Shown here one piece after another: positions 2,398 to 17,864 of a DNA stretch of 20,762 nt. The position numbers and the translations under genes are program-made. The stretch covers positions 1-20,762 of the IMG/VR virus record IMGVR_UViG_3300037882_004258. One strand, 5' to 3'. Position 1 is the stretch's first letter. Each line of letters begins with the position of its first letter. The stretch comes from a virus. The notes below the pieces were generated by a model. That model was not told where the DNA came from. It made no database searches and worked only from the letters and a program-made list of their open reading frames with translations.

Positions 2398-2445
2398 TTA
2401 GTTTCCAATGATATGCCAGTTTGCGCCGTCGCTCTGAATCGTTAT
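2398..2445 (-). pseudogene. Out-of-frame C-terminal end of the fibre gene
   Basis: Directly after the fibre's last codon, the -1 frame reads ITIQSDGANWHIIGN and then stops at 2400-2398. The pattern 'qSDG.NW.IIG' is a common last strand of phage fibre and collagen-like proteins. A single missing base, or a -1 shift at CCA TAA (2447-2442), separates it from the main frame. The site GCGCCATAA is not a known slippery heptamer, so a mutation or sequencing error is as likely as programmed frameshifting. Confidence 0.55.
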
Positions 2446-4358
2446 GGCGCAATGTCACCGCGAGAACGCAAATACGCAAGAAGATCGTTAATCGCGGTAC
2501 GAGCCTCTGCGTCCTGCACAGCACCACCCGATGCGTCAGCAATCGCCGCACCCTGCGCAACGGGAGTTGCGCCATTCAATCCAATATCCCCGGCGATGTG
2601 ACATGCGGTGTGCGTCCCTGTGGTGCCGATGCGAATAATGCCGCTGTCGCCATTTACGCCAGCAGAACCAATGCAGATGTTATTGCTGTTGCCGACCGTT
2701 AAATTGTTTCCGGCAAGTTGCCCAATGGCGACATTGTTATCGCCGGTCGTGATCGACTGAAGAGCCTGTAACCCAACGGCAGTGTTGTTGTCTCCGCTGG
2801 TAAGACTACTCAATGATTGAGAGCCCAACCCAAGGTTGTAGTCCCCCGTACACGAGAGACCACCGCCATTGAACATATTGGACTGCCCAACACCCGGATT
2901 ACCAGATCCAACAACACTGGTGTTACTGTTTGCGTCGGTATACCAAGCGCCGCCGCCAACCGTGGAGATCGTGCCGTCGGATTTGCGGATTTTCATCACG
3001 CCATCAACGTCAAGAAAAGCAGTCCCGTAACCTTCTGCCGGTGTGGGCGGGATTGTGATTTTCTTCAACGTCACGCCCACGTCGGAAGTCAGCGCCACGG
3101 TTGACTGCGCACCGTAAATTTCTGAAGTCGCCAGAATCGTGCCGCCGCCAATCACGGTGCGCCCGCCGCCAATCAAAGCGGTGTCGCCGGTCATTTTCAC
3201 GCAGAAGTTTTCTGATCGAGCCGTTCCGGTGCTTTCCTCCGTCGCCCACGTCTCGCCGGTCAAAAGCTCAACAGTTTGCGTGAGTGTCGAGCCGTCAGTC
3301 TGCCCGCCAATCGCAAAAATCGTATTGTCGGAAAGCGCGATGGATTTATGGTTGTACCGAGCCACGTCGAGCGAGCCTGTTGCCGTCCAAACACCGGCAA
3401 TCAACTTTTCGCACGTCGCGGTGGCGGCGGTCAAATCGGTGTTGTAGCCGCCAATCAAAACGGGGACGCCCGAAGCAATCGAGATGGTGGCGAATTCGCG
3501 TTGTAAAATCACGTCGGGGCCTGACGACCATGTGCCGCCAACGTCGTCGTAAATCTCTGTCGTGTCAGAATCGACACCGCCGAGCATGCCGGAAACAGCA
3601 TGAACGTCGCCGTTAGCGTCTTTGAACGCCGCGAACCCAGTGCGCTCGTCCGACATTGCGCCGGTCGCAGTCACCGTACCGGCCTCATCGTACAGATCGC
3701 AATCGCCGCCACGACCGCCGAAAATCAAAACGAGGCCTGAATCCAGTTTGATCGCCGTGCCGTATTCGTCGGCGGCGGTGCCCGAAAATGTGCCGTCGTT
3801 GGCACAAAGCTCAGTAGTCGGGTCGTAAACTTCAACGGTGGTGGCCGCGCCGCCGATACTGCCGACAATCAAAACCTTGTCGTTGTCCAGGAGCACGGCT
3901 GTGCAACCGCCGCGAGCCGTCACAAGATCGCCGGTCGGCGTGAAAAGCCCGGTGGCCGGGTCGTAGATTTCGCACGTGTCGAGTTCGGTGCCGGAAATAT
4001 CCAGCCCGCCGCAAATAAAAATGCGCCCATCAGCCAGCAGGCAGACGCCCGGATTTCTACGGCCAGTGCCAAGACTGCCGGTAGCCAGCGGTTGAACGGC
4101 GGGCGGGGCGTTGGTTTGGATTTCCGTAACCGGGCCATCTTCAACCGTGCGTGCCAGAATTTGCCCGCCGTGCGCATACATCGCGATGCAGCCCGGCAGC
4201 GGAACGCCGTTGGCCGGGTCGTCAGCGTCTTCGGTTGTGGAGATTTTGACGGGGATGCCAGACGCCGCACTGAATGCCAGGTGTTCGCCGTCGTCGAGCG
4301 CGACGCAGCCCAGTGTGGACATGATGACGGATTTCGCGGGCGGCAGTGTTGTCGGCAT
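2442..4358 (-). CDS. Kelch beta-propeller fibre or head/tail decoration protein with YadA/Hep_Hag-like repeats
   Basis: A 638-residue protein. Residues about 96-415 contain seven kelch-like repeats; the glycine doublets or near doublets (ICGG, IVGS, IFGG, VSGM, LIGG, AIGG, LIGG) are each followed by a TEIYD- or VEVYDP-type strand, so a seven-bladed propeller is expected. Residues about 501-582 hold repeats of the NTAVGLQAL / NVAIGQLAG type, as in YadA-like trimeric adhesin heads and many phage fibres. Residues about 605-630 look like a short trimerising helix. The likely role is binding to a host surface or to the capsid or tail outside. It lies among the head-tail genes rather than after the tape measure gene, so a head fibre or neck appendage is possible. 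The in-frame end, RSRGDIAP, is followed in the -1 frame by a typical fibre ending (see 2398-2445). Confidence 0.8.
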   Translation of the reverse strand: MPTTLPPAKSVIMSTLGCVALDDGEHLAFSAASGIPVKISTTEDADDPANGVPLPGCIAMYAHGGQILARTVEDGPVTEIQTNAPPAVQPLATGSLGTGRRNPGVCLLADGRIFICGGLDISGTELDTCEIYDPATGLFTPTGDLVTARGGCTAVLLDNDKVLIVGSIGGAATTVEVYDPTTELCANDGTFSGTAADEYGTAIKLDSGLVLIFGGRGGDCDLYDEAGTVTATGAMSDERTGFAAFKDANGDVHAVSGMLGGVDSDTTEIYDDVGGTWSSGPDVILQREFATISIASGVPVLIGGYNTDLTAATATCEKLIAGVWTATGSLDVARYNHKSIALSDNTIFAIGGQTDGSTLTQTVELLTGETWATEESTGTARSENFCVKMTGDTALIGGGRTVIGGGTILATSEIYGAQSTVALTSDVGVTLKKITIPPTPAEGYGTAFLDVDGVMKIRKSDGTISTVGGGAWYTDANSNTSVVGSGNPGVGQSNMFNGGGLSCTGDYNLGLGSQSLSSLTSGDNNTAVGLQALQSITTGDNNVAIGQLAGNNLTVGNSNNICIGSAGVNGDSGIIRIGTTGTHTACHIAGDIGLNGATPVAQGAAIADASGGAVQDAEARTAINDLLAYLRSRGDIAP

Positions 4359-4403: not shown

Positions 4404-4832
4404 TTACGTCAACTCGGTGACTTTATACGCCGTCGGCGTTCCGGGACTAAACATCGTGATTGCACCAGTATACACGGTTGCGCCTGACTCGTAAAACAAA
4501 CCAACACCACTACCGATGGTTCCCATCACGATTGTGTAATTAGATGCGGAAACAGCGCCATCACCAGATGGAATAACGTCTCCATTTTCATCCACGCCGC
4601 CAAACAAAACATAAGTTGGCGAACTAAGTCCCGCAAAAAATGTAAAGCCCTTACGGTTATCGTTTGCTGCAAGCAAAAGCGTTGCGGTTGCAGCGGAGAG
4701 TGATACGGTTGTCGTTGTCGCGGTTCCGGCGGTTGTCCCGCCTCCGCTGCCGCCTGCTCCGGCGGTTTTCAATTCGCCGTCTTCATTGAATTTCAGCGAG
4801 GCGCTTTGAATCGGGACAGTTGTATCAGCCAT
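4404..4832 (-). CDS. Small beta-rich phage structural protein, unknown
   Basis: A 142-residue protein beginning MADTTVPIQSASLKFNEDG. Residues about 20-50 are a Gly/Thr/Ala-rich linker (GGSGGGTTAGTATTTT); the remainder has strand-like segments (TYVLFGGVDENGD, NYTIVMGTIGSGVGLFY) and ends with a Tyr-Lys-Val strand. This resembles small phage-exterior or adaptor proteins, but I do not recognise a family. Its ATG overlaps the end of the upstream membrane protein gene by 8 nt (ATGGCTGA), so it is translationally coupled, and it is followed 45 nt later by the fibre gene, which hints that it may anchor or cap the fibre. That link is inference. Confidence 0.65.
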   Translation of the reverse strand: MADTTVPIQSASLKFNEDGELKTAGAGGSGGGTTAGTATTTTVSLSAATATLLLAANDNRKGFTFFAGLSSPTYVLFGGVDENGDVIPSGDGAVSASNYTIVMGTIGSGVGLFYESGATVYTGAITMFSPGTPTAYKVTELT

Positions 4833-5169
4833 GATTTTTTACCCCGTTCCCGCTTCCACTTTTCGACGCACGCAGAAGCATTGCGTTTTCGGCGTCAATT
4901 CTATCCATCAGCCGCGTCATCGTCTCTGTGTTGTTTGAAATCACTACGTTGTTTTCGCGCATCATCTTGGAGAATGATTCAAGATACTGATGATTGTTTT
5001 CGGCTGACTCTTTCTGTAATTGCTTAATCAAATCTAAGTGTTGTTGTGCGGTTGAATCGAGCCTGTCTGCCATGCGGTTGTAAATCGACCAACCCGCCTT
5101 ACCCAATGCTAAAATAGCCATTATGACAAGGCCTGTCTGCACTCCGAATTTATCAATCAATTCAGCCAT
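4825..5169 (-). CDS. Small membrane-anchored coiled-coil protein (holin-like candidate)
   Basis: From ATG 5169 the protein is about 114 residues, MAELIDKFGVQTGLVIM and on. One strongly hydrophobic segment lies at about residues 8-28, followed by a charged helical region with heptad-like spacing (LDSTAQQHLDLIKQLQKES) ending in a basic tail. A single N-terminal membrane helix plus coiled coil occurs in BhlA/UviB-like holins and in small phage membrane proteins of unknown role. A GTG at 5175 is an alternative start; AGGAG sits 10 nt before the ATG and 4 nt before the GTG, so I prefer the ATG. It overlaps the upstream head-tail gene stop and the downstream gene start. No endolysin is visible nearby, so a lysis role is only a candidate. 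Confidence 0.7.
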   Translation of the reverse strand: MAELIDKFGVQTGLVIMAILALGKAGWSIYNRMADRLDSTAQQHLDLIKQLQKESAENNHQYLESFSKMMRENNVVISNNTETMTRLMDRIDAENAMLLRASKSGSGNGVKNHG

Positions 5170-5521
5170 CCGCACCCATCTCCTTTGTGTGAATTCGCAA
5201 GGTTTTCCCGTCCGGGTCTGACCATCTGTAACACGGTTCGCCGGTCGGGGAAATCACCTCGTACAAAATTCCGCCGTCGGCAATCACGTCGCCGCGCAGC
5301 GGAATTCCAAAGGTTAGATTTGTCGCCAGAATCAAGAAATCGCGGGTCTCCGTTTTGATGAAAACACCGTAAGCGGATGACTCCTCGAAAACGCTTTTTC
5401 CGACTGACGCCGGAATTGAAAGTGCGGTCTCGCCCACGCGCCGGTACGAAATTGCGTGTGACGCAACTTCGCCAAGTTTTGAGTCGAGCCAGTCTGCCCC
5501 GGTGCGCAGTAAATCCCGCAT
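5162..5521 (-). CDS. Head-tail joining / head completion protein
   Basis: A 119-residue protein beginning MRDLLRTGADWLDSKLGEVASH. The N-terminal helix with 'DLLRTGADWLDSKL' and the following 'YRRG / SIPASVGKS' strands, then FLILATNLTFGIPLRGDVIADGG-type strands, resemble the small head-tail joining proteins of lambda-like and HK97-like phages (gpFII and similar). These form the ring between the portal and the tail. It lies between the capsid decoration protein (stop 6 nt upstream) and the membrane protein (overlapping), a normal place in this cluster. Full length for the family; nothing looks broken. Confidence 0.72.
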   Translation of the reverse strand: MRDLLRTGADWLDSKLGEVASHAISYRRVGETALSIPASVGKSVFEESSAYGVFIKTETRDFLILATNLTFGIPLRGDVIADGGILYEVISPTGEPCYRWSDPDGKTLRIHTKEMGADG

Positions 5522-6327: not shown

Positions 6328-8355
6328 TTACGCCGCGCCTTTGGCCTTGCAGCCGCCGCGAGCGTCCTGTTTCGCCACACCGAAGTCGTGAACGCCGCGC
6401 ATCTGAATTCCGAGAGTATTGAACTCGGCGACTGCGCTCTCCACGGTCGGGTTTTCCTGACCGTTGAGAAACACAGTCTGGATCACCGGCACATCCATCG
6501 GATCGGCCAGCAGATACCACGCGGTGCTCGAACCCGTGACGGTCGCACCGCCGATGGTCGTGCGCTGCAAGTACCGGCTCGCGACAGGCGTGAACAGCCC
6601 TGCGTGAGGATTGGCCGTGCCATACAGCGTTGATGCTGTCGTGTCGCGGATTTCCGTTGAGCGCATAAGCTGCGTTGCGGCAGTCTGAAGCGCGGTGGGC
6701 ACCAACAGAATGCGGGCGGTGTGGCCGATGATCTGGCCGTCGGTGTCGATCAACTGGTTGAACTTGTTGAGCAGGTTCGTGATGCCGTTCACGGTCAAAA
6801 GCGAGTCAACCGCGCCAACGAGGTAGTTGGAATTCCCGCTCGAAAAGAAGCTAGAATCGTCAAGGAACGCAGTCCAGAAAACTTCATTCAGCGCGTTACC
6901 AGCGCCCGCGCCCAGCTTGCGGGGGATGGTGCCCAGCGCGTTCAGATCGTCGTTGATAATCATCGTGCGGTCGATGTTCAGCATCAAGCCGTAGGTCTGA
7001 GCGGCGTTGGTGTAGCTCTGGTTGCCGAGTGTGCCGTTTTTGATCGTACCGCCGGGGGCCACGCGCTGATAAGTGCCAGCGCCGGTCAGCCGGTAGGACG
7101 TCATGGTTTTAAAATCGGGAACGGTGGCGATCTGTGAAATCTGACGCCACGCCTGTTCGGTGAAATTGAAACCAGCCAGCAGGAACTTGTTGGCGATGTT
7201 CGAGAGAATCCCGCCGATGTCGATGTTGCTCGACGCCTGAATTCCGTAACCGAAAGCGGCCCGCTGGATTTCCAGTTCATTGCCGCCGAACTGAGCCTTT
7301 TTGTATCCGTTGGCCCAGGCAGCCTGAAGCATCAGATGCTGAATGCCAAGCCCGGTCTTGAATGCGCGGTGTGACGCTTCGAGCGTTTCCGGTTTGTAAA
7401 CTTTTTCGATGTCGGGCATTTTGACGCGCTGAGCCATCGAGCATTCGAGAAGCGAAGACTCGATCTTCGGCGTCTCGATGATGATCGCGTTGGGCGCGGC
7501 GGGGCGACTGGCGCGGAGAACGGTCAGCGCGAACTCGCCGGGGGTGGATTTGTTTTTGATCGCGGCTGCGCGGATCTCAGACGCGTTCGGCAGCGAGCAT
7601 TCCAGCGCGTTGATCTCGGTGATGCGATTCTGTTCGGCGACGGCCTCTGCGTTAATCTGCTCAGCAGTTTTCACCGGGGCTGCATTTGCCTGCACAATAA
7701 CCGGAGCGGGCGTGTTCGGCTGATTGCCCGCATTGGGCTCAGTTCCGGTCACGGGCGCGGCGGGGTCACGATGGATTCTCAAAACAGCCTCCTTCGCGGC
7801 ATTCGCCGCAATCGTTGCACTGGTTGTAGGGTCGGCTCCGAGTTCGGTCAGCGAGACCTCCATCAGAGTTGTCTTGGCCGCAATATATAACGGCCCCGCA
7901 AAAGTTTGTCCATTAATTTTCGCGCTGCCGGTTTCCGGCACATACACAATTTCGTTGATTGAACAACCAACCGAGGCTTGCCAAGGGAAACCGTTTTTCG
8001 CAGAATTCACCACATCGGCAGCGTAAACAGTGTCGCGGGAAATCAGCCCCGAACACATCAGCGTTTTGCCGTCGTTGGTGAACGAGTTGAGGTGGCCAAC
8101 ACCCTGATCGCGGGAATGTTCCAGACGAATCGGGATGGAGTTTGACGGAATCGACATGCCCGCCAAATCGATCACAACGGGCGTCCCGCTGAATCCCATC
8201 GGATTCATTTTTCCGCCGTTGTAGGCGTTCATTGAAATTTTCGGAACGGCCTTAGTGCCGGTTGCAGCGTCGGGCGCGAACGCCTCGATTGTCGCGGCAC
8301 ATGTCAGCGCCATCGGAGACAATTTACTCACGTCGATTTTATTCGTGATCGTCAT
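6328..8355 (-). CDS. Prohead protease fused to major capsid protein
   Basis: A 675-residue protein. Residues about 60-190 match the HK97-type prohead serine protease: a catalytic-type His80 in RLEHSRD, a Ser128 in WQASVGCS, and the conserved EVSLTELGAD strand. Residues about 200-310 are a low-complexity, Ala/Pro and Glu-rich linker likely acting as scaffold or delta domain. Residues about 320-675 resemble the Mu gpT/HK97-fold capsid protein (VYKPETLEASHRAFKTG, then IQHLMLQAAW, QRAAFGYGIQASSNID, TMIINDDLNALGTIPRKLG). The protein therefore carries protease, scaffold and shell in one chain and must cut itself during maturation, as in other known protease-capsid fusions. The ATG at 8355 overlaps the portal stop by 17 nt. 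The fusion has no internal stop, so it is one polypeptide. Confidence 0.85.
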   Translation of the reverse strand: MTITNKIDVSKLSPMALTCAATIEAFAPDAATGTKAVPKISMNAYNGGKMNPMGFSGTPVVIDLAGMSIPSNSIPIRLEHSRDQGVGHLNSFTNDGKTLMCSGLISRDTVYAADVVNSAKNGFPWQASVGCSINEIVYVPETGSAKINGQTFAGPLYIAAKTTLMEVSLTELGADPTTSATIAANAAKEAVLRIHRDPAAPVTGTEPNAGNQPNTPAPVIVQANAAPVKTAEQINAEAVAEQNRITEINALECSLPNASEIRAAAIKNKSTPGEFALTVLRASRPAAPNAIIIETPKIESSLLECSMAQRVKMPDIEKVYKPETLEASHRAFKTGLGIQHLMLQAAWANGYKKAQFGGNELEIQRAAFGYGIQASSNIDIGGILSNIANKFLLAGFNFTEQAWRQISQIATVPDFKTMTSYRLTGAGTYQRVAPGGTIKNGTLGNQSYTNAAQTYGLMLNIDRTMIINDDLNALGTIPRKLGAGAGNALNEVFWTAFLDDSSFFSSGNSNYLVGAVDSLLTVNGITNLLNKFNQLIDTDGQIIGHTARILLVPTALQTAATQLMRSTEIRDTTASTLYGTANPHAGLFTPVASRYLQRTTIGGATVTGSSTAWYLLADPMDVPVIQTVFLNGQENPTVESAVAEFNTLGIQMRGVHDFGVAKQDARGGCKAKGAA

Positions 8356-9832
8356 TTAAAGGCTCCTCAATTTCTGCGTTTTCGGCGGGTGTTTTTGATT
8401 GTGAAATGGCCAGCGGATTCATACCGGGATTGGCAACCGGCAATTCAATGCCGAGCAGTTTGGCGCGGGCCTGTTCTTTCGCGATCTGGTTGAACTGCGT
8501 TTCCCAATCGAGGCCGTCGCGGGCATACTCCTGCGCGTAGGTCGTGGTGCGCGATGCCAGCCTGGTCGATTGCGCCGTCGCCTCTTTCGCCGGGTCAACA
8601 TGCTGCGTACCGGCCCAAAACCATTGGTGCGCCACATCGACGGCACCGGCATCGATACCTGAAATGTAACCCGGAATGTATGACGCCTCTTTCAACCACG
8701 CCGAAAAAACGCGGTCGAGAATGTCGTCGATCATGCACTCGCGCTCGACTTTCAGACTCTTGTAATACGTCTGGTGGTCGAGGCGCCCGCTTGCGTAATT
8801 GTACGTGCTGGAATTTCCTGCCGCGACATTGAACGGCATGTTCATGCACCGTGCGATTTCGCCGATGATTTCGTTCTTGAAGTCCTTGTATGCATCCACC
8901 GGCTGCGCGGCTTGCATCTGCGTAATGCCCCAGCCAGCAGGCAGCGTAACCCAGGCATTACGCTGCACATTCAACACGGTGTCTTTTGAAACCGTCGCGC
9001 CTTCATCCTCGACTACCTGTGCCAAATCGGTGTGCACGATTCCGGCGACATTTGACGCCGCGCGGGCGGTGTCGAGAACAGATTGACTGTACTGCCGGAG
9101 TTGCGCGAACAGCCCGAGCGCGGGCGTAATTTCAGGGATGCCGCGCATTTGTCCGGGGCGTGTTGCGCGGAAATAATGCAGCATAAAATCCGGTGAAATT
9201 GTGTCGTAACCGGTGGCGATTCCCATTCCCCAATAATCGCCGGGGTGGTGTTTCAAAACGTGCCATTCGATCACGTTTCCGAGGTCGTCAAACTTCATAC
9301 CGTCCACCGCGTTCGGCGTGAAAATGGTGGCCGTCCAGCTGCTGGCCACCTGGTCAGCCTCGATCAGTTTCACGTCCAACTGAACCGGTGTTTTAATTTT
9401 CGGATTGTTCACCAAAACGCCGAAAGCCTCGCCATCCTGCGAGCGGCAAATCCGCATGAGCCTCAGTTTCGCGGCAAGCCCAATCGCGTTTGACCAGCGG
9501 TAAAATTCGCGCTCAATTTTGGTGTTTAAATCTGTATTGGCGGTCTGCACCTGAAGGCGGGGGCCGGTGCCGATGGTGTCGTTGGCCAGCGTCTGTACAA
9601 TTCCGTAGGCGTATGAGTTGTTCGCCACCTCGTGCCGCGCCCGCATTCGTAACGTGCGGCGCACGGGCGCGGACGTGGCGACGTTTGCGGATAGCGCGTC
9701 GGCGTCGGCCCAGTGTTGCACATTGTTGGATGTGGTTTGCGCCGCGTCGAAGCGGGCCTCCACGCGGTTGCGCGGGGCGAATGCCGAGGAAATGCGGGCG
9801 GCGATGTTGCGGGCGGTTTGCGCGATTTTCAT
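8339..9832 (-). CDS. Portal protein (lambda family)
   Basis: A 497-residue protein. The start MKIAQTARNIAARISSAF, then SANVATSAPVRRTLRMRARHEVANNSYAYGIVQTLANDTIGTG, the PGQMRGIPEITPAL segment, and the NMPFNVAAGNSSTYNYASGRLDHQTYYKSL segment are the hallmark regions of lambda-type portals. The portal forms the dodecameric channel at one capsid vertex through which DNA enters and leaves and to which the terminase docks. Length is usual for the family. The C-terminal tail is acidic and disordered-looking (EIEEPLNDDHE). It follows the gpW-like gene directly (stop 9834, start 9832) and overlaps the protease-capsid start, so the three are one translational unit. Confidence 0.92.
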   Translation of the reverse strand: MKIAQTARNIAARISSAFAPRNRVEARFDAAQTTSNNVQHWADADALSANVATSAPVRRTLRMRARHEVANNSYAYGIVQTLANDTIGTGPRLQVQTANTDLNTKIEREFYRWSNAIGLAAKLRLMRICRSQDGEAFGVLVNNPKIKTPVQLDVKLIEADQVASSWTATIFTPNAVDGMKFDDLGNVIEWHVLKHHPGDYWGMGIATGYDTISPDFMLHYFRATRPGQMRGIPEITPALGLFAQLRQYSQSVLDTARAASNVAGIVHTDLAQVVEDEGATVSKDTVLNVQRNAWVTLPAGWGITQMQAAQPVDAYKDFKNEIIGEIARCMNMPFNVAAGNSSTYNYASGRLDHQTYYKSLKVERECMIDDILDRVFSAWLKEASYIPGYISGIDAGAVDVAHQWFWAGTQHVDPAKEATAQSTRLASRTTTYAQEYARDGLDWETQFNQIAKEQARAKLLGIELPVANPGMNPLAISQSKTPAENAEIEEPLNDDHE

Positions 9833-9833: not shown

Positions 9834-10037
9834 TTAGCGGACGCACCCCGGCGGTGAGATTTGCTGCCAGAGAACGCCGCCAGATTTCAACCTGCCAGCC
9901 GCTTTTTTGGTGAGATATTCATCCGCCGCGATGAGGTCGGGGATCGGGTGGGACTCGGCTTTGCGCCCGTCAATTTCAATGCGTTTCGGGTCTGTCGCGG
10001 CGGTCGGGAGCGCCGTTTCGATTGCACTTACAGCCAT
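9834..10037 (-). CDS. gpW-like small head-tail connector protein
   Basis: A 67-residue protein beginning MAVSAIETALPTAATDPKR and ending GVLWQQISPPGCVR. Its size, the position between the terminase and portal genes, and the helix-beta-helix look with a C-terminal 'ISPPG' tail fit the lambda gpW-type proteins that plug the portal channel and prepare it for the tail. In many lambda-like genomes a protein with a similar PPG ending directly precedes the portal. RBS AAAGGGG lies about 8 nt before the ATG. It is the first gene after the terminator of the inserted small unit, so it needs its own promoter. Confidence 0.68.
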   Translation of the reverse strand: MAVSAIETALPTAATDPKRIEIDGRKAESHPIPDLIAADEYLTKKAAGRLKSGGVLWQQISPPGCVR

Positions 10038-10061: not shown

Positions 10062-10089
10062 ATAATCTCTGAAACGGCTTTTTTTTCAA
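10062..10089 (-). promoter_or_regulatory. Candidate promoter for the head operon (weak)
   Basis: TTGAAA (10089-10084), exactly 16 nt spacer, then GATTAT (10067-10062), placed between the terminator of the inserted unit and the gpW-like start at 10037. The 16-nt spacer matches the other promoters of the window, but the -10 is poor and the CGTATA dyad is absent. Without some promoter here the strong terminator at 10099-10124 would cut off the head genes. Confidence 0.35.
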
Positions 10090-10098: not shown

Positions 10099-10124
10099 AA
10101 AAAAAGCCCGCTAAAAAGCGGGCC
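10099..10124 (-). terminator. Rho-independent terminator
   Basis: GCCCGC (10123... minus strand) pairs with GCGGGC across a six-base loop (plus-strand arms 10106-10111 and 10118-10123), followed on the minus strand by seven T (10105-10099). Ends the small inserted unit. The plus-strand side has CCTTTTAA after the stem, so it is weaker in that direction. Confidence 0.85.
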
Positions 10125-10130
10125 TTTTAA

Positions 10131-10185
10131 GGCTAATTTTTAAGGCCGTTTCCGGCACGACCGTATAGCTCCGGTCTATTTAGCC
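10131..10185 (-). other. Structured RNA at the 3' end of the inserted small gene
   Basis: In the minus-strand transcript, GGCTAA (10185-10180, in the last codons of the 74-residue gene) can pair with TTAGCC (10136-10131). It encloses two hairpins: GACCG...CGGTC (10176-10172 with 10163-10159, eight-base loop) and GCCG-GAAA-CGGC (10156-10145) with a GNRA tetraloop. A three-way junction of this kind directly before a terminator may serve mRNA stability or be a regulatory RNA. The pairings are seen; the role is unknown. Confidence 0.45.
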
Positions 10186-10400
10186 TGTTTCTTTTCCAAA
10201 ATCTTCAAAGCCGCGTTGGATGCCTTGGTTGGTGTCGCGCAGTAACCGCTTTTCCCGCTGTAGACTCCGCCGATGTAAACGCTTGCCGCCCAAGGACGAA
10301 CGTTTCCAGACCAAGCATAAACGGCGATGAATGTTTCGTTCTCTGCGCGTTTTTTCTGAATTTCATCAAAAGGCAGGTTTGTGTATGTTTTGGCGTCCAT
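10176..10400 (-). CDS. Small unknown protein in an independent unit between terL and the head genes (moron-like)
   Basis: From ATG 10400, with AGGAG eight nt upstream, it encodes 74 residues beginning MDAKTYTNLPFDEIQKK. An in-frame ATG at 10442 would lie at the predicted transcription start and is rejected. The region PWAASVYIGGVYSGKSGYC followed by TPTKASNAALKILEKK has the spacing of the second half of a dsRNA-binding domain (two strands, then a helix with Lys and Ala-Ala), but this likeness is by eye and weak. I do not recognise a family. It has its own promoter (10448-10475), leader hairpin and terminator and breaks the usual terminase-gpW order, the definition of a phage 'moron'. It shares its promoter type with the accessory genes of the right half. 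Confidence 0.75.
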   Translation of the reverse strand: MDAKTYTNLPFDEIQKKRAENETFIAVYAWSGNVRPWAASVYIGGVYSGKSGYCATPTKASNAALKILEKKQAK

Positions 10401-10419
10401 CTTTGCGTCTCCTGTTTTC

Positions 10420-10438
10420 GGGTCGCTTCTTGCGTCCC
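10420..10438 (-). promoter_or_regulatory. 5' leader hairpin of the inserted small gene
   Basis: GGGACGC (10438-10432), loop AAGAA, GCGACCC (10426-10420): six pairs with one A-A mismatch. It starts about ten nt after the -10 box, so it would sit at the very 5' end of the mRNA. The same place holds a similar stem in four other leaders, with changed but still pairing bases, suggesting selection for the fold. Confidence 0.6.
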
Positions 10439-10447
10439 ACATGAATC

Positions 10448-10475
10448 AATATATACGCGGCTTAGTTAAATACAA
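10448..10475 (-). promoter_or_regulatory. Promoter of the inserted small gene (shared type)
   Basis: -35 TTGTAT (10475-10470), 16-nt spacer ending CCGCGTA, -10 TATATT (10453-10448). It lies 30-60 nt beyond the terminase stop. Belongs to the promoter family of 13237, 14906, 16348, 16493, 17496 and 18651. Confidence 0.75.
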
Positions 10476-10506
10476 TATCTTTTTATGCGGATTTTCAGAT
10501 TTATTT

Positions 10507-12786
10507 TCAAAACCCGGATGCGATGCTCTGCCTGATCGAGTTCATGTCGACCGCAACTTTTTTCTTTTTGGTCGTCGCACCGCTGCCGATTTCCGCCAGC
10601 GTCGCGCCCTGGATTGCCGCGCCAACGGCACAACCTACCACGCAATCCAGCCAATGATTGTCACCGCCACCCGGACGCAATTTCCATTCGTCGACCACGC
10701 GCCCGCGTCCCGTTGTGCGGATTCGATATTCCGCAGTGAGGTGATCTGCAAAACACTGGTGGTTGATTCTCTTGTCACCGAAAATGCTCAGGTTTGCCCG
10801 GTCGCCCAGTGCGGTGGCGAATCGTGAGAAGATGAATGACTTCCAATAATTCGTATCGAAAACAACGTGCCGCACTTCGCGCTTGTCTTTGATTGGAATG
10901 CGCCAGTTGATGCCCGTCCGCTCACCCGGTTTTTTCGTGTAGTCGCCAAACGGTTTGGAACTCGCACCGACATACTTTCCGTGACTCGGAATCAGCACAG
11001 ACGAGAATTCGCTCTGTTTACAAAATTTGTAAATCATGTCGGTCGACGGACCCCAATTGGCGTCGATCATGCACTGGCTGATTTTCATTTTCGTTCCGTC
11101 TGTGCGCCGCCATTCGAGCGGCAACATCTGGCCCGTCAATTTCTCGAGGCCCGCGTAAATCTTTCCTTCCATGCCGTGCGTCGGGAACTCCACATCTAAA
11201 TTATTTTGCGCGTCGGCCAGCGTGAAATAATTCCGTTTCTGGTCGGGGTATGTGCCGTAATCTAAAACGTACCCGGTGAAATCCTCTGACCAGCCCACGA
11301 TTGTGTAAAACAAAAGACGCTGCTGAATGTCAATGAACATCGTGATGTAGTTCACAGACAACGGCACCTCGCCTGGTTTGTACCCGTTGGTTTTCTCCGC
11401 GATTTCGACAGCCGAAACGGTGCCGTCGAGCAATGACTTATCCTGCATCGGCTCGTTTTGGTACTCTGCAAAAAACGTCTCTTCGTCGTTGAACTTGATG
11501 TTCATGGCGAACTGCAGAGCAGAGATTTCGTTGTCGTCGAACCGTTCATCCCACGCGACTTTCGCACCCGCGTCCATCTCTGATTTGTTGGCCAGATAAA
11601 ACGCTGTGGCGTCCGCAATGTCGCGATCTGCCCGCAAACTGTCTGCGCGAATTTCCGCGTATTTCTCCCACAGTTTCATGTTGGTCGGGAATTCATAAAC
11701 CAGTTTCGTGCGCTCGCCGTTCCACACCGGATGGATGTTTTTGTTCAGGATGGTGTCTGTCACGTCACCGGGGCGAATGACAGTGCATGGCATAAAACCC
11801 GCGATCTTCCGTTTGTGGCCGGCCATGCCGAGCACCGCGCCTGAAATGATCTTCTCCCGCGTCCTGCACTGGTCTCGGCTGCGGGCACTTTCGTCCGTTT
11901 GCGGGTCGTCAACGATGACCATCTCTGGACGCATAGTCTTGCCATCTGCTGTTTGGTATTTAGCACCGCGAACACCTGCGCCTGTCAGTCCTGCCGTCTT
12001 AATGATCGCGCCGGAAGATGGTGAACCGGGGATGGTGGCCAACACGATCTCGTCTGCCCATTCGATGTGCGTCCGGTTCCCGTTGTAAACCTGGCCGAGG
12101 CATCGTTTGGAAATGCCTTCCAGTTTTTGGATCGGGTAAATCGCGGCCGGAAAATCCTCTGCCAGAAACGGGTTTGTCTCCAAGTGCATTTTGATCGCGT
12201 CGAGCAGTTGTTCGGCGTGATCTGACGACGGCCCGATAACGACCACGAACTTTCGGTGGCCGTAGAGCACAGACCAGACGGCAGCGCACTCTGACATGCT
12301 TGTTTTGCCGGATCCGCGAGGCATGGCGAATGCGAACAGCCCGCCGCGCAAAACGGCATTCTCGATTTTCCCGATCACGCGCAGGTGGTCGGGCGACCAC
12401 CCCATGTAAAACATTTGCGGAAAATAGTTCTCACAAAACGCCTGAAAACTTTCGCGACATTTCTCGCGCCGTTCCGGGTTTTTGATTTCGGGAATGTCGC
12501 CAATGTCGCGGGCGGCCTGTGACGCAATTTTCTGTTTTAACGCTTGGTCAGCTTTGTGCTGTTCGTAGGATTTTCCATCGGGTTTATCGTGCCGCGTTGT
12601 CAACAGCCAAGCAAAATATTTCGGCAGATTAAATGTCTTGCCTGCACCAATTCTGAAACCTGCTTTGTCTTTGTGATTTTCGAGATTCTGTTTTGATGTG
12701 ACAGATCCAATCTGTGTGGAATTCAGAATCTGCGTGAGTTCGCGGGATGTCAGATTCAGCGGGTCGATTTTCTTTTCTGCCGCCAT
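10507..12786 (-). CDS. terL: Terminase large subunit (with N-terminal small-terminase-like domain)
   Basis: A 759-residue packaging motor. Walker A-like PRGSGKTS lies at 156-163, Walker B MVIVDDPQTDE at 289-299. The C-terminal nuclease shows acidic residues in FIDIQQ (Asp486), MIDANWG (Asp575) and GGDNHWLDC (709-715), the last typical of GpA-like terminases. It cuts concatemeric DNA and pumps it into the prohead through the portal. Residues about 10-65 form an extra domain with SKQNLENHKDKAGFR...FNLPKYFAWL, similar in layout to the stand-alone protein encoded just upstream (12790-13011), so a small-terminase-like DNA-binding domain seems to be attached. The ATG at 12786 follows the upstream TAA by 3 nt. 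Full length. Confidence 0.93.
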   Translation of the reverse strand: MAAEKKIDPLNLTSRELTQILNSTQIGSVTSKQNLENHKDKAGFRIGAGKTFNLPKYFAWLLTTRHDKPDGKSYEQHKADQALKQKIASQAARDIGDIPEIKNPERREKCRESFQAFCENYFPQMFYMGWSPDHLRVIGKIENAVLRGGLFAFAMPRGSGKTSMSECAAVWSVLYGHRKFVVVIGPSSDHAEQLLDAIKMHLETNPFLAEDFPAAIYPIQKLEGISKRCLGQVYNGNRTHIEWADEIVLATIPGSPSSGAIIKTAGLTGAGVRGAKYQTADGKTMRPEMVIVDDPQTDESARSRDQCRTREKIISGAVLGMAGHKRKIAGFMPCTVIRPGDVTDTILNKNIHPVWNGERTKLVYEFPTNMKLWEKYAEIRADSLRADRDIADATAFYLANKSEMDAGAKVAWDERFDDNEISALQFAMNIKFNDEETFFAEYQNEPMQDKSLLDGTVSAVEIAEKTNGYKPGEVPLSVNYITMFIDIQQRLLFYTIVGWSEDFTGYVLDYGTYPDQKRNYFTLADAQNNLDVEFPTHGMEGKIYAGLEKLTGQMLPLEWRRTDGTKMKISQCMIDANWGPSTDMIYKFCKQSEFSSVLIPSHGKYVGASSKPFGDYTKKPGERTGINWRIPIKDKREVRHVVFDTNYWKSFIFSRFATALGDRANLSIFGDKRINHQCFADHLTAEYRIRTTGRGRVVDEWKLRPGGGDNHWLDCVVGCAVGAAIQGATLAEIGSGATTKKKKVAVDMNSIRQSIASGF

Positions 12787-13236: not shown

Positions 13237-13264
13237 TATATATACGGATAAGTCAAAATGTCAA
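13237..13264 (-). promoter_or_regulatory. Promoter of the packaging operon
   Basis: -35 TTGACA (13264-13259, overlapping the amidotransferase stop), 16-nt spacer, -10 TATATA (13242-13237). The -10 lies inside the perfect palindrome CGTATATATATACG. The leader is short (about 20 nt) with no hairpin, unlike the accessory-gene promoters. It is the best match to a consensus sigma-70-type promoter in the window. Confidence 0.78.
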
Positions 13265-14016
13265 TTCTGAAAAAGAGTCCCGTTGTGCGGATAGAAGCTT
13301 TTCGGGTAAACATTTTCGCGATCTGCGGTGATGTGGTTCCACGAATCCGAGACAGTCAGGACGCAAACGGAGTCTTCCTTCACCGATGAAACGGTACCGC
13401 CCAAATGATCTGGAAACGACCCGAACCAAAAATCATGTTTGGATTGCCCGAAATGAATCGGGTTTCCGCGTTTTGCAATCAGAAACCTGGCGTTGTACGC
13501 TGCTCCACCCGGAGTCATATCTGGATTTGGATTCGGGAACAAACCGAGCACCGCAAGATTCCCGCGAATAACACGGATTGCATCGCGGGTGCGGGTGGCC
13601 AAGTTGCCTTTCTGGTCGATTAGCAGCCCGATCACCTCGGTGTCGCATTCCGTTTTCATTTCCAGTTCGTAGTTCTCGCACAGTTTTTCGTAATTGGAAA
13701 CGACGCCATTGTGCACGAACAGACCGTTGCGACACTTGTGCGGATGGTTGTTCTCGTTGGTCTCAGGGTCGCCGTGTGTGGCGTACCGGCAATGCCCGAT
13801 GACAGCGAGCGCGTGTTCGCAGCGGTCGATATCCGAAATATCATCGGTCACCGCGCCGGGCCGTTTGAACGAATTGAGATTGCCCGACTGGTCAATCCAC
13901 GCGAGGCCAAACGCGTGACGCCCTCTTTCCTGCGTTTTAATCGCAATCTTGCGCAGGGTGTTCATGCAAACGGCGCGGTCGCCAGACCGCGTCAGAAACC
14001 CAAAAATGCCGCACAT
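13261..14016 (-). CDS. Class II glutamine amidotransferase (stand-alone Ntn hydrolase domain)
   Basis: A 251-residue protein starting MCGIFGFLTR. After Met removal Cys2 is the N-terminal nucleophile. Other residues of the GlmS/PurF-type glutaminase site are present: the HCRYATHG motif (75-82, Arg77), NNHPH (89-93), VHNGVVSN (101-108, oxyanion Asn103-Gly104) and ECDTEVI (Asp125). It should hydrolyse glutamine or another amide, releasing ammonia or removing an amide group. No synthase domain is attached, so the partner must be another protein; the nearby amidoligases are obvious candidates. It is the last gene of the unit started by the 14906-14933 promoter. The catalytic set looks intact, so activity is expected, but the acceptor is unknown. 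Confidence 0.9.
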   Translation of the reverse strand: MCGIFGFLTRSGDRAVCMNTLRKIAIKTQERGRHAFGLAWIDQSGNLNSFKRPGAVTDDISDIDRCEHALAVIGHCRYATHGDPETNENNHPHKCRNGLFVHNGVVSNYEKLCENYELEMKTECDTEVIGLLIDQKGNLATRTRDAIRVIRGNLAVLGLFPNPNPDMTPGGAAYNARFLIAKRGNPIHFGQSKHDFWFGSFPDHLGGTVSSVKEDSVCVLTVSDSWNHITADRENVYPKSFYPHNGTLFQN

Positions 14017-14036
14017 CGTTTTTCATCCTTTCCAAT

Positions 14037-14061
14037 GCCGGGCAGGCATATCCTGCCCGGC
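14037..14061 (-). other. Strong intergenic hairpin before the amidotransferase gene
   Basis: GCCGGGCAGG, loop ATATG, CCTGCCCGGC: a perfect 10-bp stem with a five-base loop in the minus transcript. No T-run follows on the minus strand; TTTTTT lies about 10 nt beyond on the plus strand. It sits between the 14075 stop and the ATG at 14016 and may be an mRNA-processing or stabilising element. A very similar hairpin is at 19095-19119. Confidence 0.6.
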
Positions 14062-14074
14062 GACCATTCGTTTT

Positions 14075-14560
14075 TTATTCTGTCCGCGCCTGCGGGCGGG
14101 GGACGATGTTGCCGTCGACGATCAAATGTCGCGACGCTGACAGCGGGAACATGCGGGCGTACAAACTAAACGCCCACCGCAGCGCGTGTGCGTACTCAAT
14201 TCCGCGCATGCATGCCACCGCGGTAAAATAAGTCACCACAGAGAGACGGTAGTGGATCACCAACCGGCGAGGATTGCCGCCAAAGTCGAACTTGGACGGC
14301 TCGCCAAAATCCTGATCGACGTCAGGCGCGAACTCGAGTGACACATCCGCGATTTCCGGGTAGGCCAGCTTCATGGCTTCGTGCAAAACCGAGAACTTCG
14401 CCTCGCGGGCCTCTGTGTTGCCGCGCCACGGTTTTGAGCGGCGGAACTCGCGAACGGCCTTCACGCATTCTGCGGAAAACATCTGGCCGGGCTCTGCGAC
14501 CACCGGCCCGTTCGCGGTCGCGACCGCAGGGGCGGGCGGGGGTGTGTTTGGTGCGTCCAT
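14075..14560 (-). CDS. Unknown phage protein, possible degenerate metallopeptidase-like fold
   Basis: A 161-residue protein. Residues about 33-60 (AVREFRRSKPWRGNTEAREAKFSVLHEAM) and about 107-140 (RLSVVTYFTAVACMRGIEYAHALRWAF) resemble a group of small phage/bacterial proteins I recall, in which 'RLSVVTYLHEFAH....A.RWSINLF...FPRS' carries an HExxH-type zinc site. Here that site reads TAVAC, so the metal ligands are missing and catalysis is unlikely. The ending SRHLIVDGNIVPRP keeps the basic 'ARL' region. It lies upstream of the amidotransferase in the same unit, with an 84-nt leader holding the hairpin at 14589-14604. Recognition is from memory and moderate at best; it may simply be a novel structural or regulatory protein. 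Confidence 0.6.
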   Translation of the reverse strand: MDAPNTPPPAPAVATANGPVVAEPGQMFSAECVKAVREFRRSKPWRGNTEAREAKFSVLHEAMKLAYPEIADVSLEFAPDVDQDFGEPSKFDFGGNPRRLVIHYRLSVVTYFTAVACMRGIEYAHALRWAFSLYARMFPLSASRHLIVDGNIVPRPQARTE

Positions 14561-14588
14561 TTATATCGTTCCTCTCTCTGGTTTCTCT

Positions 14589-14604
14589 GCCGGTTTCAAC
14601 CGGC
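14589..14604 (-). other. Leader hairpin before the 14075-14560 gene
   Basis: GCCGGT, loop TGAA, ACCGGC: a perfect 6-bp stem with a four-base loop, 30 nt before the ATG. Like the other intergenic hairpins it lacks a T-run. Possible RNase processing or stability element. Confidence 0.5.
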
Positions 14605-14644
14605 GATGATGTATGCAATCTCTGATTAAAAAGCGGGCATGGCT

Positions 14645-14854
14645 TTACGCCAGCATCACCTCCAGATCAGTGCGAATGAAGTGGTTGAAGAATGATTTTG
14701 TTGCGTCCGTGGTGATGGAGTGTTTCCCGTCGTTCTTTTCAGCGTATGCGGTGTGGCCCAATTTGCGGAGTGCGATGGTGATGGTGTTGATTTTGTTTTC
14801 GGAAATGGTGTTTAGAAAAAAGGTGAAGGTTGTGGTTTTGGTCGCGGTCGTCAT
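14645..14854 (-). CDS. Small unknown accessory protein
   Basis: Starting at ATG 14854, with GGAG eight nt upstream and the shared GAAACGACC-ATG box, it encodes 69 residues: MTTATKTTTFTFFLNTISENKIN then a helix and ending FNHFIRTDLEVMLA. An upstream in-frame GTG at 14902 lies inside the predicted leader and is rejected. The composition (Thr/Asn/Lys at the start, then a mixed helix-strand) gives no family. It is the first gene of the unit that ends with the amidotransferase. Such small proteins early in phage accessory units are often host-directed, but nothing here shows that. Confidence 0.65.
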   Translation of the reverse strand: MTTATKTTTFTFFLNTISENKINTITIALRKLGHTAYAEKNDGKHSITTDATKSFFNHFIRTDLEVMLA

Positions 14855-14877
14855 GGTCGTTTCTCCGTTTTGTTTTC

Positions 14878-14896
14878 GGGTCGCGTTTTGCTTCCC
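14878..14896 (-). promoter_or_regulatory. 5' leader hairpin of the 14645-14854 gene unit
   Basis: GGGAAGC (14896-14890), loop AAAAC, GCGACCC (14884-14878): outer GGG/CCC and inner GC/GC pairs with a two-base internal loop. Same place and outer stem as the 10420-10438 hairpin. Confidence 0.5.
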
Positions 14897-14905
14897 ACAC
14901 ACGTA

Positions 14906-14933
14906 TTTATACGCGCATATGCGAAATATGCAA
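14906..14933 (-). promoter_or_regulatory. Promoter of the 14854-13261 accessory unit
   Basis: -35 TTGCAT (14933-14928), 16-nt spacer ATTTCGCATATGCGCG, -10 TATAAA (14911-14906). The spacer and -10 are identical to those of the 16348-16375 promoter. The CGCATATGCG palindrome in the spacer could be an operator. It begins 11 nt after the long amidoligase stop. Confidence 0.78.
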
Positions 14934-14943
14934 GCTCTGTTTT

Positions 14944-16320
14944 TTACAATCTGCGCCGTCTGTGCATCGGAATCGCAGGCGGTGACCGCCGGATGAAATC
15001 TGGCGGGCGCGTGATGGTTGCTGCTGGCGGGCGCGTGATTTCTGCGGGCTGCGGAATGGTGATCTGATTCGGATTGTTGATTGGTGATCGCGTCAGATTT
15101 TGAATTGCCTGTGACAAATGAACCACGATTTCATTCTCAGAAAAACTTGGAACTTCCAACGATATGGGTCTGTCAAAATTCATGTTCTCTGCATTCCGAA
15201 CGATGGTGGCCAACCGTCTGCACTCGCGTCGGATGATGTGAATTTGCGCATGAATGTCGGATTCTGTTGTCGCGTATATGGTGCCCGAACCTACACGATG
15301 GTCGTTGTTTCTGGCTGCTTCCAATTGCGCCAACTGAATGGCCGCTGAACGAATTGTTTGTTCGGGTGTCATTTCAGTTCGCGCACTCAATCCCGTCAAA
15401 TCCGGCGCGGGACGCGAGACGGTCTGCGGTTGTCGTTCGCCGGTGTCGTATTGCTTGGCGAGGCGCCTGAATTCCTCTTTTACTTTTTCCTGCGACAGGT
15501 CGTTCGGGTCAGCAATCCAACCGTATTGAATGCCGTTGTTGATTCGGGCGTACACCTCGCCCCAAGCCAAATACCCGATCAACCGCTCGCACTCGGATTC
15601 GCCCGGACCGTCCTTCATCCACCCGCCCGTTGGCGGCTTCGGATTCCAAACAGGGACGCGTTTGCAGTTCACCGCCCGCTGAACAATTCCGAGGCATACC
15701 TGAATCCAACCGGCGATCTTCACCGGCGATGTGGAACCGGAAAAGCACCGGAACTCGACGGTTCGCTGCCTGGCATTCCGCCTGGTGACGTTGGTCAGAT
15801 TCAGAATGTGATACCGGTCGTCGCCCGAGTGTCGCGTCGCGCTGTCTGGATTCCCGTATGCGCGGATCGAATGGCAGAATGACCCCTGTTCGCGTTTTTT
15901 CGTGCCGGTGATGGCGTACAAACCCCGCTCGCAGTAAGCAGTGATGCCGATCAGGCGTTTAATTTCGTCGCCAGAGTTTGGCCACTCTTCTTTCCACCCG
16001 ATGTGGATGTGAACGCCGCAGGATTTATTGACCGCATGTCCTTTTTGGGTGATCTTGATCATGGCGTCGATCACGTTTTTGATGCCGGGCGCACCGTGCA
16101 GAACGGGCGACGTGATTTCGCATTTCACCATCGGAACCGAATAACCGGAGGTCGAAATCGACCCGTCGTCTTCGGCTTTCCATCCGGATGGCAGATACGG
16201 GATCTGGATTCCAGCGTGATGTGGCCCGATTTCCAGCCGTCCTGCCGGGTCGCGGGTCAAGATGGTGGGCGCGGCGGTCTCACATTCGACTCCAAACGTC
16301 AATTCGTTGGCGTCAATCAT
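14944..16320 (-). CDS. Amidoligase with C-terminal extension (Amidoligase_2 family)
   Basis: A 458-residue protein. Residues 1-292 are an Amidoligase_2 (glutamine-synthetase-like) COOH-NH2 ligase: FGVECE (Glu12, Glu14), CEITSPVL (Glu68), SCGVHIHIGW (His104, His106), RYHILNL (Arg169, His171, Asn174) and TVEFRCFSG (Glu189, Arg191). These acidic, His and Arg residues are the expected metal-, ATP- and substrate-binding set. It should form an amide bond using ATP. Residues about 293-458 are absent from the paralogue at 16570: a helical, Gln/Arg-rich part and a proline-rich tail with TRPP repeats. It is divergent from its paralogue, sharing clear identity throughout the catalytic domain. The substrate is unknown; the tail may recruit it or a partner. 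Confidence 0.9.
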   Translation of the reverse strand: MIDANELTFGVECETAAPTILTRDPAGRLEIGPHHAGIQIPYLPSGWKAEDDGSISTSGYSVPMVKCEITSPVLHGAPGIKNVIDAMIKITQKGHAVNKSCGVHIHIGWKEEWPNSGDEIKRLIGITAYCERGLYAITGTKKREQGSFCHSIRAYGNPDSATRHSGDDRYHILNLTNVTRRNARQRTVEFRCFSGSTSPVKIAGWIQVCLGIVQRAVNCKRVPVWNPKPPTGGWMKDGPGESECERLIGYLAWGEVYARINNGIQYGWIADPNDLSQEKVKEEFRRLAKQYDTGERQPQTVSRPAPDLTGLSARTEMTPEQTIRSAAIQLAQLEAARNNDHRVGSGTIYATTESDIHAQIHIIRRECRRLATIVRNAENMNFDRPISLEVPSFSENEIVVHLSQAIQNLTRSPINNPNQITIPQPAEITRPPAATITRPPDFIRRSPPAIPMHRRRRL

Positions 16321-16347
16321 CGGTTTTTCTCCCCAAATGTTGAGAGA

Positions 16348-16375
16348 TTTATACGCGCATATGCGAAATAATCAA
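16348..16375 (-). promoter_or_regulatory. Promoter of the long amidoligase
   Basis: -35 TTGATT (16375-16370), spacer ATTTCGCATATGCGCG (16 nt), -10 TATAAA (16353-16348). The leader of about 20 nt has a GGGGAG ribosome-binding site before the ATG at 16320 and no hairpin, unlike the other accessory-gene leaders. Confidence 0.78.
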
Positions 16376-16391
16376 GACATTTCCATGCAAT

Positions 16392-16437
16392 TCGGTCAAA
16401 AAAATGTCAAAAATCGGTCAAAAGAAGGCCTTCTTTT
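16392..16437. promoter_or_regulatory. Repeats and palindrome between the divergent amidoligase promoters
   Basis: TCGGTCAAAA occurs twice (16392-16401, 16414-16423) with a related TGTCAAAAA between (16405-16413). They abut a perfect 18-bp palindrome AAAAGAAGGCCTTCTTTT (16420-16437). The span lies between the -35 boxes of two back-to-back promoters, so it may hold operators for a regulator acting on both, or a bidirectional transcription barrier. The remaining bases to 16492 (about 55 nt, AT-rich) show nothing else I can name. Confidence 0.5.
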
Positions 16438-16492
16438 TGGCCAAAAATATGCGATTTTTGAGATAAAAACGACAATTCTCCATAGATAAAGC

Positions 16493-16520
16493 TTGCGTAT
16501 TTATACGCGCCGTATATAAA
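16493..16520 (+). promoter_or_regulatory. Promoter of the short amidoligase
   Basis: -35 TTGCGT (16493-16498), 16-nt spacer containing the TATACG dyad, -10 TATAAA (16515-16520). Downstream, CGCG-AATAA-CGCG (16534-16546) forms a short leader hairpin, followed by a GGGG/AAAACGACC box before the ATG at 16570. Confidence 0.75.
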
Positions 16521-16569
16521 TGTATCTGTGAGACGCGAATAACGCGAACCAAAAACGGGGAAAACGACC

Positions 16570-17451
16570 ATGATCGACGCCAAAGACCTGACATTCGGAA
16601 TTGAGATCGAGACCATCGCGCCGGTGGCACTGACGCAACAGGTGTTTGGCCTGGACGGGCGGTACGCACCCGCCGAATTGACCATTGGCCATTACAAGAA
16701 CGGAATTCAGGTCCCGTACCTTCCGCAGGGGTGGACGGCGGAACGCGACGGGTCGATCAACGACAGCGCGGGACGGCCCTGCGAGATTGTGAGCCCGGTA
16801 TTGAAAGGCGAAGACGGGATCGCGCAGGTGATTCAGGTTTTGAAGACGCTCGAATCCAAAGGCCACAAGGTGGACGCTAGCTGCGGCGTACACGTACACA
16901 TTGGTTGGGATTCAAACATGCCCAGCGACGCGCTGGCCCGCCTGATCACCATCGTCTCCTACTGCGAAAAAGGCCTGTACGCGATCACAGGCACGAAGAG
17001 CCGCGAACGCGGGCGGTTCTGCGCGGGGGTGCGCAAATACAATAACGCCAAGAGCGCCAAGACCAGTCTCGACCGCGACAGATACCACGCGTTGAACCTG
17101 ACCAACCTCGCCAACGGCAACAAGAACACGGTCGAATTCCGCATTTTCTCCGGGTCCACCAGCGCCACCAAGGTGGTCGGCTGGATTCAAGTTTGCCTCG
17201 GATTGGTGCAGCGCGCCGTAAACGGCAAACGCAACCCGAACTGGAATCCCAAAGCGCCCAGCGGCGGATGGAAGAAAGCGGGCGAGGGCCAGAGCGAAAC
17301 CGAGCGCCTGATGGGCTACCTCGCTTGGGGCGATTGTTACAAACGCCTGAACAACGGGCAGGAGTTCGGGTGGATTTCAAACGCGATTGCGCAGGATGAC
17401 GTAAAGAAAGAATTCCGGCGCTTGGCCAAAAAATACGACGAAATGCCATAG
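16570..17451 (+). CDS. Amidoligase (Amidoligase_2 family), short paralogue
   Basis: A 293-residue protein with only the catalytic domain. The signature residues are present: FGIEIE (Glu12, Glu14), CEIVSPVL (Glu72), SCGVHVHIGW (His108, His110), RYHALNL (Arg171, His173, Asn176), TVEFRIFSG (Glu189, Arg191). It is predicted to join a carboxylate to an amine with ATP. Long stretches are shared with the divergent gene at 14944-16320 (for example GWIQVCLG, GYLAWG, EFRRLAK), so the two arose by duplication with inversion. The start MIDAKDLTFG matches the paralogue's MIDANELTFG. In other genomes the family is known next to glutamine-amidotransferase-like or Aig2-like genes; both types are present here. 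Substrate unknown. Confidence 0.92.
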   Translation: MIDAKDLTFGIEIETIAPVALTQQVFGLDGRYAPAELTIGHYKNGIQVPYLPQGWTAERDGSINDSAGRPCEIVSPVLKGEDGIAQVIQVLKTLESKGHKVDASCGVHVHIGWDSNMPSDALARLITIVSYCEKGLYAITGTKSRERGRFCAGVRKYNNAKSAKTSLDRDRYHALNLTNLANGNKNTVEFRIFSGSTSATKVVGWIQVCLGLVQRAVNGKRNPNWNPKAPSGGWKKAGEGQSETERLMGYLAWGDCYKRLNNGQEFGWISNAIAQDDVKKEFRRLAKKYDEMP

Positions 17452-17495
17452 AGAATGGCCAAGAAAATAAATCTGCAATTCCACAAAAACAGATG

Positions 17496-17523
17496 TTGAA
17501 ATTATATACGGCGCGTATATATT
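17496..17523 (+). promoter_or_regulatory. Promoter of the 17571-18633 operon
   Basis: -35 TTGAAA (17496-17501), 16-nt spacer, -10 TATATT (17518-17523). A perfect 8-8 bp inverted repeat TATATACG-GCG-CGTATATA spans the spacer and -10. Preceded by ACAGATG, shared with the 18651 promoter. Confidence 0.78.
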
Positions 17524-17532
17524 GGTGTTTGT

Positions 17533-17551
17533 GGGAACCAAAACGGGTCCC
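17533..17551 (+). promoter_or_regulatory. 5' leader hairpin of the 17571-18633 operon
   Basis: GGGAACC (17533-17539), loop AAAAC, GGGTCCC (17545-17551): six pairs and one mismatch. Same position and outer GGG/CCC pairs as in the 10420 and 14878 leaders, with different inner bases. Confidence 0.55.
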
Positions 17552-17570
17552 GAAAAACGGAGAAACGAAG

Positions 17571-17822: not shown

Positions 17823-17847
17823 CCCAACCAAACCAACCAACCAACCA
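17823..17847 (+). repeat. CCAA tetranucleotide repeat in intergenic leader
   Basis: Four to five near-perfect CCAA units, as in CCAACCAACCAACCA, sit between the 17822 stop and the AAAGGA ribosome-binding site. With almost no pairing potential, they may simply keep the leader unstructured; slippage during replication could vary their number. Confidence 0.7.
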
Positions 17848-17864
17848 CAGAAAGGACAACGACC

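Follow-up and report, generated by a model that had tools for sequence, protein, structure and literature searches.

A probable one-gene moron at a variable junction of terL with the head genes of a phage

Morons are single coding regions that carry their own promoter and terminator and lie between two phage genes. Those of lambdoid and Mu-like phages have a different GC content, occupy hotspots where different morons are found at one site and include toxin-antitoxin and methylase genes (PMC4378225, PMC2920897). In prophages, accessory loci that carry promoters of their own have also been described (PMC7067206). P2/P4 anti-phage hotspots are small loci of 1-5 kb with high turnover, located between two conserved genes and carrying defence-type genes (PMC9122126). 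Cluster K mycobacteriophages carry start-associated sequences with inverted repeats (PMC3203893).

The DNA analysed here is a virus record of 20,762 bases, and "the window" refers to this full stretch. The packaging and head genes of the phage are on the minus strand, and the host probably belongs to Lentisphaerota-like bacteria. A small unit carrying the gene P0002 lies between terL and a gpW-like gene (Table 1), and the terL stop almost abuts its start. The gpW-like gene gave no match in the Pfam search; among PHROGs it weakly matches head-tail joining (E 0.1). A 638-aa protein with Kelch repeats is encoded among the minus-strand late genes (2442-4358). At 19406-20704 the window carries a DNA methylase (PF01555) whose N-terminal part gives a weak ParB-like match (E 0.27).

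Table 1. Position of the P0002 unit, its parts and the flanking genes in the window
Feature	Coordinates	Strand	Basis or remark
terL (terminase large subunit)	10507..12786	-	PF20454
Upstream module (promoter and leader)	10398..10508	-	76% identity over 111 nt to the module at 17463-17573(+), before the DUF6900 gene
Sigma-70-type promoter TTGTAT-16-TATATT	10448..10475	-	-35 10475-10470; -10 10453-10448
Leader hairpin GGGACGC-AAGAA-GCGACCC	10420..10438	-	Near expected transcript start; weak statistics
Shine-Dalgarno AGGAG	10409..10413	-	Eight bases ahead of ATG 10400
P0002, gene of a 74-aa protein	10176..10400	-	ATG 10400; ORF and codon use
3' untranslated region, two small hairpins	10129..10175	-	RNA folding
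Intrinsic terminator	10101..10128	-	Score 37.5, top of window
Weak candidate promoter TTGAAA-16-GATTAT for gpW/portal genes	10062..10089	-	Just past terminator; 9 of 12
gpW-like small head protein	9834..10037	-	Placed between terL and portal by alignment with relatives
Portal protein, lambda family	8339..9832	-	PF05136
Protease/major-head gene	6328-8355	-	Head gene

The first-pass annotation had described a self-contained unit between terL and the gpW-like gene, and its promoter, 74-residue ORF and strong terminator, together with a Shine-Dalgarno sequence, were confirmed. The terminator score is equalled by none of 100 shuffles. Codon use in the P0002 frame (log-odds +0.244 per codon, against -0.366 to +0.080 in the other five frames) falls within the range of the comparison set of 19 other phage genes (0.113-0.434), and the frame looks coding. 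The length of P0002 alone is weak evidence, since an ATG-initiated ORF of at least 74 codons occurs in 429 of 5000 random sequences of 378 nt. An alternative in-frame ATG upstream, at 10442, would extend the protein to 88 aa. The GC content of the unit is 47.2%, against 55.4% for the window, 53% for terL and 57% for portal, but some core genes are equally low (0.45 at 4825-5175 and 0.47 at 1963-2397).

The RNA elements of the unit are less clear-cut. The proposed leader hairpin is present, but its z of -1.8 is statistically weak when taken alone. Similar hairpins occur at 14898-14873(-) and 17531-17556(+), and the values across the three copies are modest (-1.8, -1.4 and -0.4). The three leaders include one compensatory change, from a G-C to a C-G pair, a level also attained in 162 of 500 shuffles. 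A DNA-pattern search of viral contigs with the leader gave no match. A conserved peptide encoded by the leaders was considered and rejected: the changes show no third-codon-position bias, and one of the three copies is out of frame with its own gene. The structured 3' RNA claimed for the unit was recovered with a z of -2.65, a value obtained on a folded stretch that takes in the terminator itself. A functional RNA product (a small RNA or an attenuator-like element) with an incidental reading frame would suit the hairpins at both ends of the unit and the frequency of equally long ORFs in random sequence. However, codon log-odds are clearly positive in the P0002 frame only, the Shine-Dalgarno sequence is in place and Rfam gives no family at gathering score for the unit (a Trp_leader hit falls below cut-off and on the opposite strand), which makes an RNA product highly improbable.

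The P0002 promoter is one of six alike promoters in the window. The others are found before 14855(-), the amidoligase genes at 16320(-) and 16570(+), the DUF6900 gene at 17571(+) and 18679(+). With a matrix made from its five sisters, the P0002 promoter obtains a leave-one-out score of 25.0 and ranks sixth, behind those five; the maximum in 20 shuffles is 17.7. The second site scores 26.4, yet one shuffle reached 22.9; the sixth (18651), the weakest of the set, fails the leave-one-out (5.0, rank 23). A generic promoter count is uninformative (9 found, 10.3 expected). The first reading had assigned P0002 to an accessory promoter type. This stands insofar as the other five members precede accessory genes, but a similar, near-consensus promoter of related type, TTGACA-16-TATATA (13264-13237, score 16.7), precedes small genes upstream of terL.

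A dyad, TATACG-N3-CGTATA, is exact in two of the accessory promoters (16502-16516 and 17505-17519), where it lies between the -35 and -10 boxes and is operator-like in sequence. It recurs at 14908 and 16350, where two positions are mismatched and the spacer is 2 nt long. These four sites compare with 0.5 expected and a maximum of three in 50 shuffles. The spacer of the P0002 promoter retains only the right half, CGTATA, and this might release P0002 from a control common to its sister genes.

This part of the window also carries two amidoligases (PF12224), a class-II glutamine amidotransferase (PF13522) and a gamma-glutamyl cyclotransferase (PF06094) close together at 13261-18633. Judged by its predicted families, this phage cluster is an accessory module for peptide ligation. 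Amidoligases 34-45% identical to these occur in 8 viral contigs.

Searches with the P0002 protein against Pfam, PHROGs, NCBIfam and PADLOC returned no family match, including none to a known anti-phage defence or toxin-antitoxin model, and homologues are absent from the viral contigs, genome contigs, phage records and plasmids searched. The AP2 profile does not match P0002. The first-pass annotation had suggested a comparison with dsRNA-binding domains, and the Pfam dsrm profile finds no match in the window at E <= 10. In 288 genomes from the phylum of L085, a relative discussed below, the best match (E 9.4e-4) is short, is found in a single genome and lies inside a 249-aa protein, which we take to be NqrC; with so short a match in one of 288 genomes, we rejected it as due to chance. 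Five uS11 sequences match P0002 with E 0.004-0.009. Identity with this ribosomal protein was also rejected, as only these five matched and Pfam Ribosomal_S11 gives no match at E <= 10. A single-sequence AF2 model has a pLDDT of 48.5, too poor to judge the fold, and the predicted order helix-strand-strand-strand-helix is a hint only. By these searches, P0002 encodes an orphan protein.

The terL-gpW junction was compared in 160 terL loci, comprising 80 of the 110 matching viral-contig loci and 80 of the 415 matching genome loci; most are titled Planctomycetota. Junction counts use 139 of them, the remaining 21 having no recognisable gpW or terL stop. In these 139 loci terL and gpW are conserved around the slot, and P0002 is present in none. 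A match to P0002 below E 0.2 was found in none of the 160 loci, nor in 31 further terL loci. The first-pass annotation had proposed a gene gained or moved in, and had named its presence at this place in all relatives as the finding that would speak against this. Such a presence was looked for and did not occur; the absence from all relatives examined is consistent with gain. The closest terL sequences among the relatives collected are 57-59% identical, so that the sample includes no near-identical relative with an empty site. In a quick terL tree the window branch is long (1.31) and lies near the root, with unsure placement; the nearest row by tree path is L085, a Lentisphaerae MAG, where terL and gpW are adjacent.

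Adjacency, which the first reading had taken as the normal state, proved to be uncommon. According to our own cut-offs, the 139 junctions divide into 17 adjacent, 78 with a zinc ribbon only and 44 with a larger insert; setting aside L018, whose zinc ribbon reads in the terL frame, leaves 16 adjacent. The zinc-ribbon gene encodes about 60 aa with four cysteines and is found at the terL stop or within 120 nt of it in 106 of the 139 loci. The NrdR zinc-ribbon profile PF22811 matches three examples of this gene (E 1.3e-8 to 2e-10) and has no match in the window at E <= 10. The slot could thus require a small protein, and P0002 could take the place of the zinc-ribbon protein as a regulator of the phage or a helper in packaging, belonging to the core life cycle rather than to the cargo. 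However, the zinc-ribbon gene mostly starts at the terL stop or within a few bases of it, whereas P0002 has its own promoter and terminator. Moreover, 17 relatives have neither gene, and P0002 has one cysteine and hence no four-cysteine metal site like that of the zinc ribbon. We consider such a replacement unlikely. A late structural or head-completion protein, co-transcribed with the head genes, would fit the position of P0002 next to gpW and portal on the same strand; the strong terminator between P0002 and gpW, and the lack of the gene in relatives with a complete terL-gpW-portal order, make this role very unlikely.

The contents of the slot in relatives were examined with a set of 79 insert ORFs of at least 120 aa, taken from 40 insert junctions after removal of near-copies (the near-identical loci L008, L038, L050 and L079 were dropped from the scan). 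Both the 44 inserts and the 79 ORFs include L105, though its insert ORF is a portal fragment. The terL stop and the gpW match are 719-4101 nt apart among the insert junctions listed. Pfam recognises AbiEii in 10 ORFs, AbiEi in 9, DUF488 in 3, cytosine (C5) methylase in 2 and Peptidase_M78 in 2, together with single cases of HipA, MazG, DUF1643, DUF6088, resolvase, radical SAM, SMI1_KNR4 and others. PADLOC agrees on AbiE, and the slot contents, as classified by these profiles, include defence-type families. AbiEi and AbiEii occur together in 8 non-redundant junctions (L007, L039, L040, L062, L068, L082, L096 and L118). The corresponding blastp clusters, equated with AbiEi and AbiEii on the strength of the Pfam counts, have no relatives in the remaining 1.40 Mb of locus sequence, a result biased by queries taken from the junctions. 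Fifty of the 79 ORFs are blastp singletons, and most insert ORFs are without a known family.

Terminators aimed at gpW were counted again with shuffled expectations, skipping 16 loci (15 in an earlier version). Among non-redundant insert junctions, 7 of 39 have one, against 1.8 expected; the zinc-ribbon-only junctions have one in 4 of 68 cases (2.8 expected) and the adjacent junctions in none of 16 (0.2 expected). Those pointing away from gpW number 4, 6 and 0, respectively. Terminator-bounded inserts therefore exist in relatives too, in a minority only, and the four zinc-ribbon-only cases indicate that a terminator is no proof of cargo. Two recurrent types of long, GC-rich, terminator-like hairpin were also observed immediately ahead of gpW in phages that otherwise differ (L020, L034, L063, L087, L101, L104, L107, L134, L139 and L142). 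These are possible recombination points for cassette exchange.

The Lentisphaerota-type branch was sampled through 13 extended terL loci (L214-L226) from genomes drawn from the phylum of L085. In 9 of the 13, DUF2924 and a large serine recombinase, identified by Pfam, directly follow terL. In 8 of these 9, the 3.0 to 13.5 kb that were read show no portal or gpW beyond them, which is what a prophage ending at this point would give. The remaining locus, L223, is continuous and reads terL, DUF2924, recombinase, an ORF, C5 methylase, gpW, portal and head gene. In L217, L219 and L222 terL is followed by a C5 methylase and portal, and L224 is without any of these genes. Of the 31 further terL loci mentioned above, which are shorter and were read for about 0.9-1.5 kb past terL, 6 have a gpW or portal match close to terL; in all 6, terL is only 43-48% identical to that of the window. 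The position of the serine recombinase implies that the slot probably holds attP in this branch. It further suggests that gene gain could be accounted for by imprecise excision or by recombination at a module boundary.

Taken together, the own promoter and terminator, the absence of P0002 in relatives and the variability of the slot support an accessory gene. The unit is probably a moron, that is, a one-gene accessory cassette placed where the junction of terL with the head genes is variable. Host RNA polymerase would start near 10441 and produce a message of about 340 nt, with a hairpin-led leader, which would end at the terminator near 10100 and be translated into the 74-aa protein. Expression of P0002 could thus be independent of the on or off state of the late genes beside it. 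The terminator would insulate the head genes from terL transcripts, and these genes may use the weak promoter just past it, although the window shows no excess of such sites (9 of 12) over shuffled sequence. As a module boundary, the slot would be open to gene exchange, and cargo may have been gained in connection with attP. The protein would most likely be a small factor directed against the host or competing phages, acting in lysogenic conversion, defence or counter-defence. This reading comes only from what the slot contains in relatives, and a role of P0002 in host/phage conflict is our best guess, a tentative one.

The junction between terL and gpW thus appears as a gene-exchange hotspot in a large phage family, mainly from Planctomycetota and Lentisphaerota genomes, in which AbiE-type and other conflict genes can be recognised. 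We found no report of a hotspot of this type in phages of these phyla in the open-licence literature. Through guilt by location, many slot genes, P0002 among them, become candidates for defence or counter-defence. A bolder scheme, which we regard as rather unlikely as a whole, would give the phage a standard plug-in module of promoter, dyad and leader copied before its accessory genes. A regulator would read the dyad, and P0002 with its half-dyad would escape this regulator and be expressed when its sisters are silent. The terL-gpW slot, which lies by the integration module in one branch, would then be a general cassette port and a source of undiscovered defence and counter-defence genes, P0002 being one of them.

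The window phage and the cluster K mycobacteriophages both have a repeated, dyad-bearing regulatory sequence before dispersed small genes. Unlike the 13-bp start-codon element of cluster K, the repeat of the window is a sigma-70-type promoter with a leader, present in six copies, and no sequence relation was seen between the two. The terL-gpW slot resembles the P2/P4 hotspots in being a variable locus of 1-5 kb with conserved flanks and defence-type genes, the families being assigned by sequence. However, it belongs to another phage family and another site, lies by a serine recombinase in one branch and is not known to neighbour cos; the insert of the window, with one gene, is also far smaller than P2/P4 hotspot cargo. 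The hosts of the terL-gpW phages, mostly Planctomycetota and Lentisphaerota, set them apart from the lambdoid and Mu-like moron carriers, and the P0002 unit is described here at the sequence level. At that level it is a moron by the published definition, the adjacent flanks of an empty site being found in a minority of relatives. The P0002 unit is like these morons in having a single gene with its own promoter and terminator between two phage genes, and the slot of the relatives is like their hotspots in its varied occupants, toxin-antitoxin and methylase genes among them.
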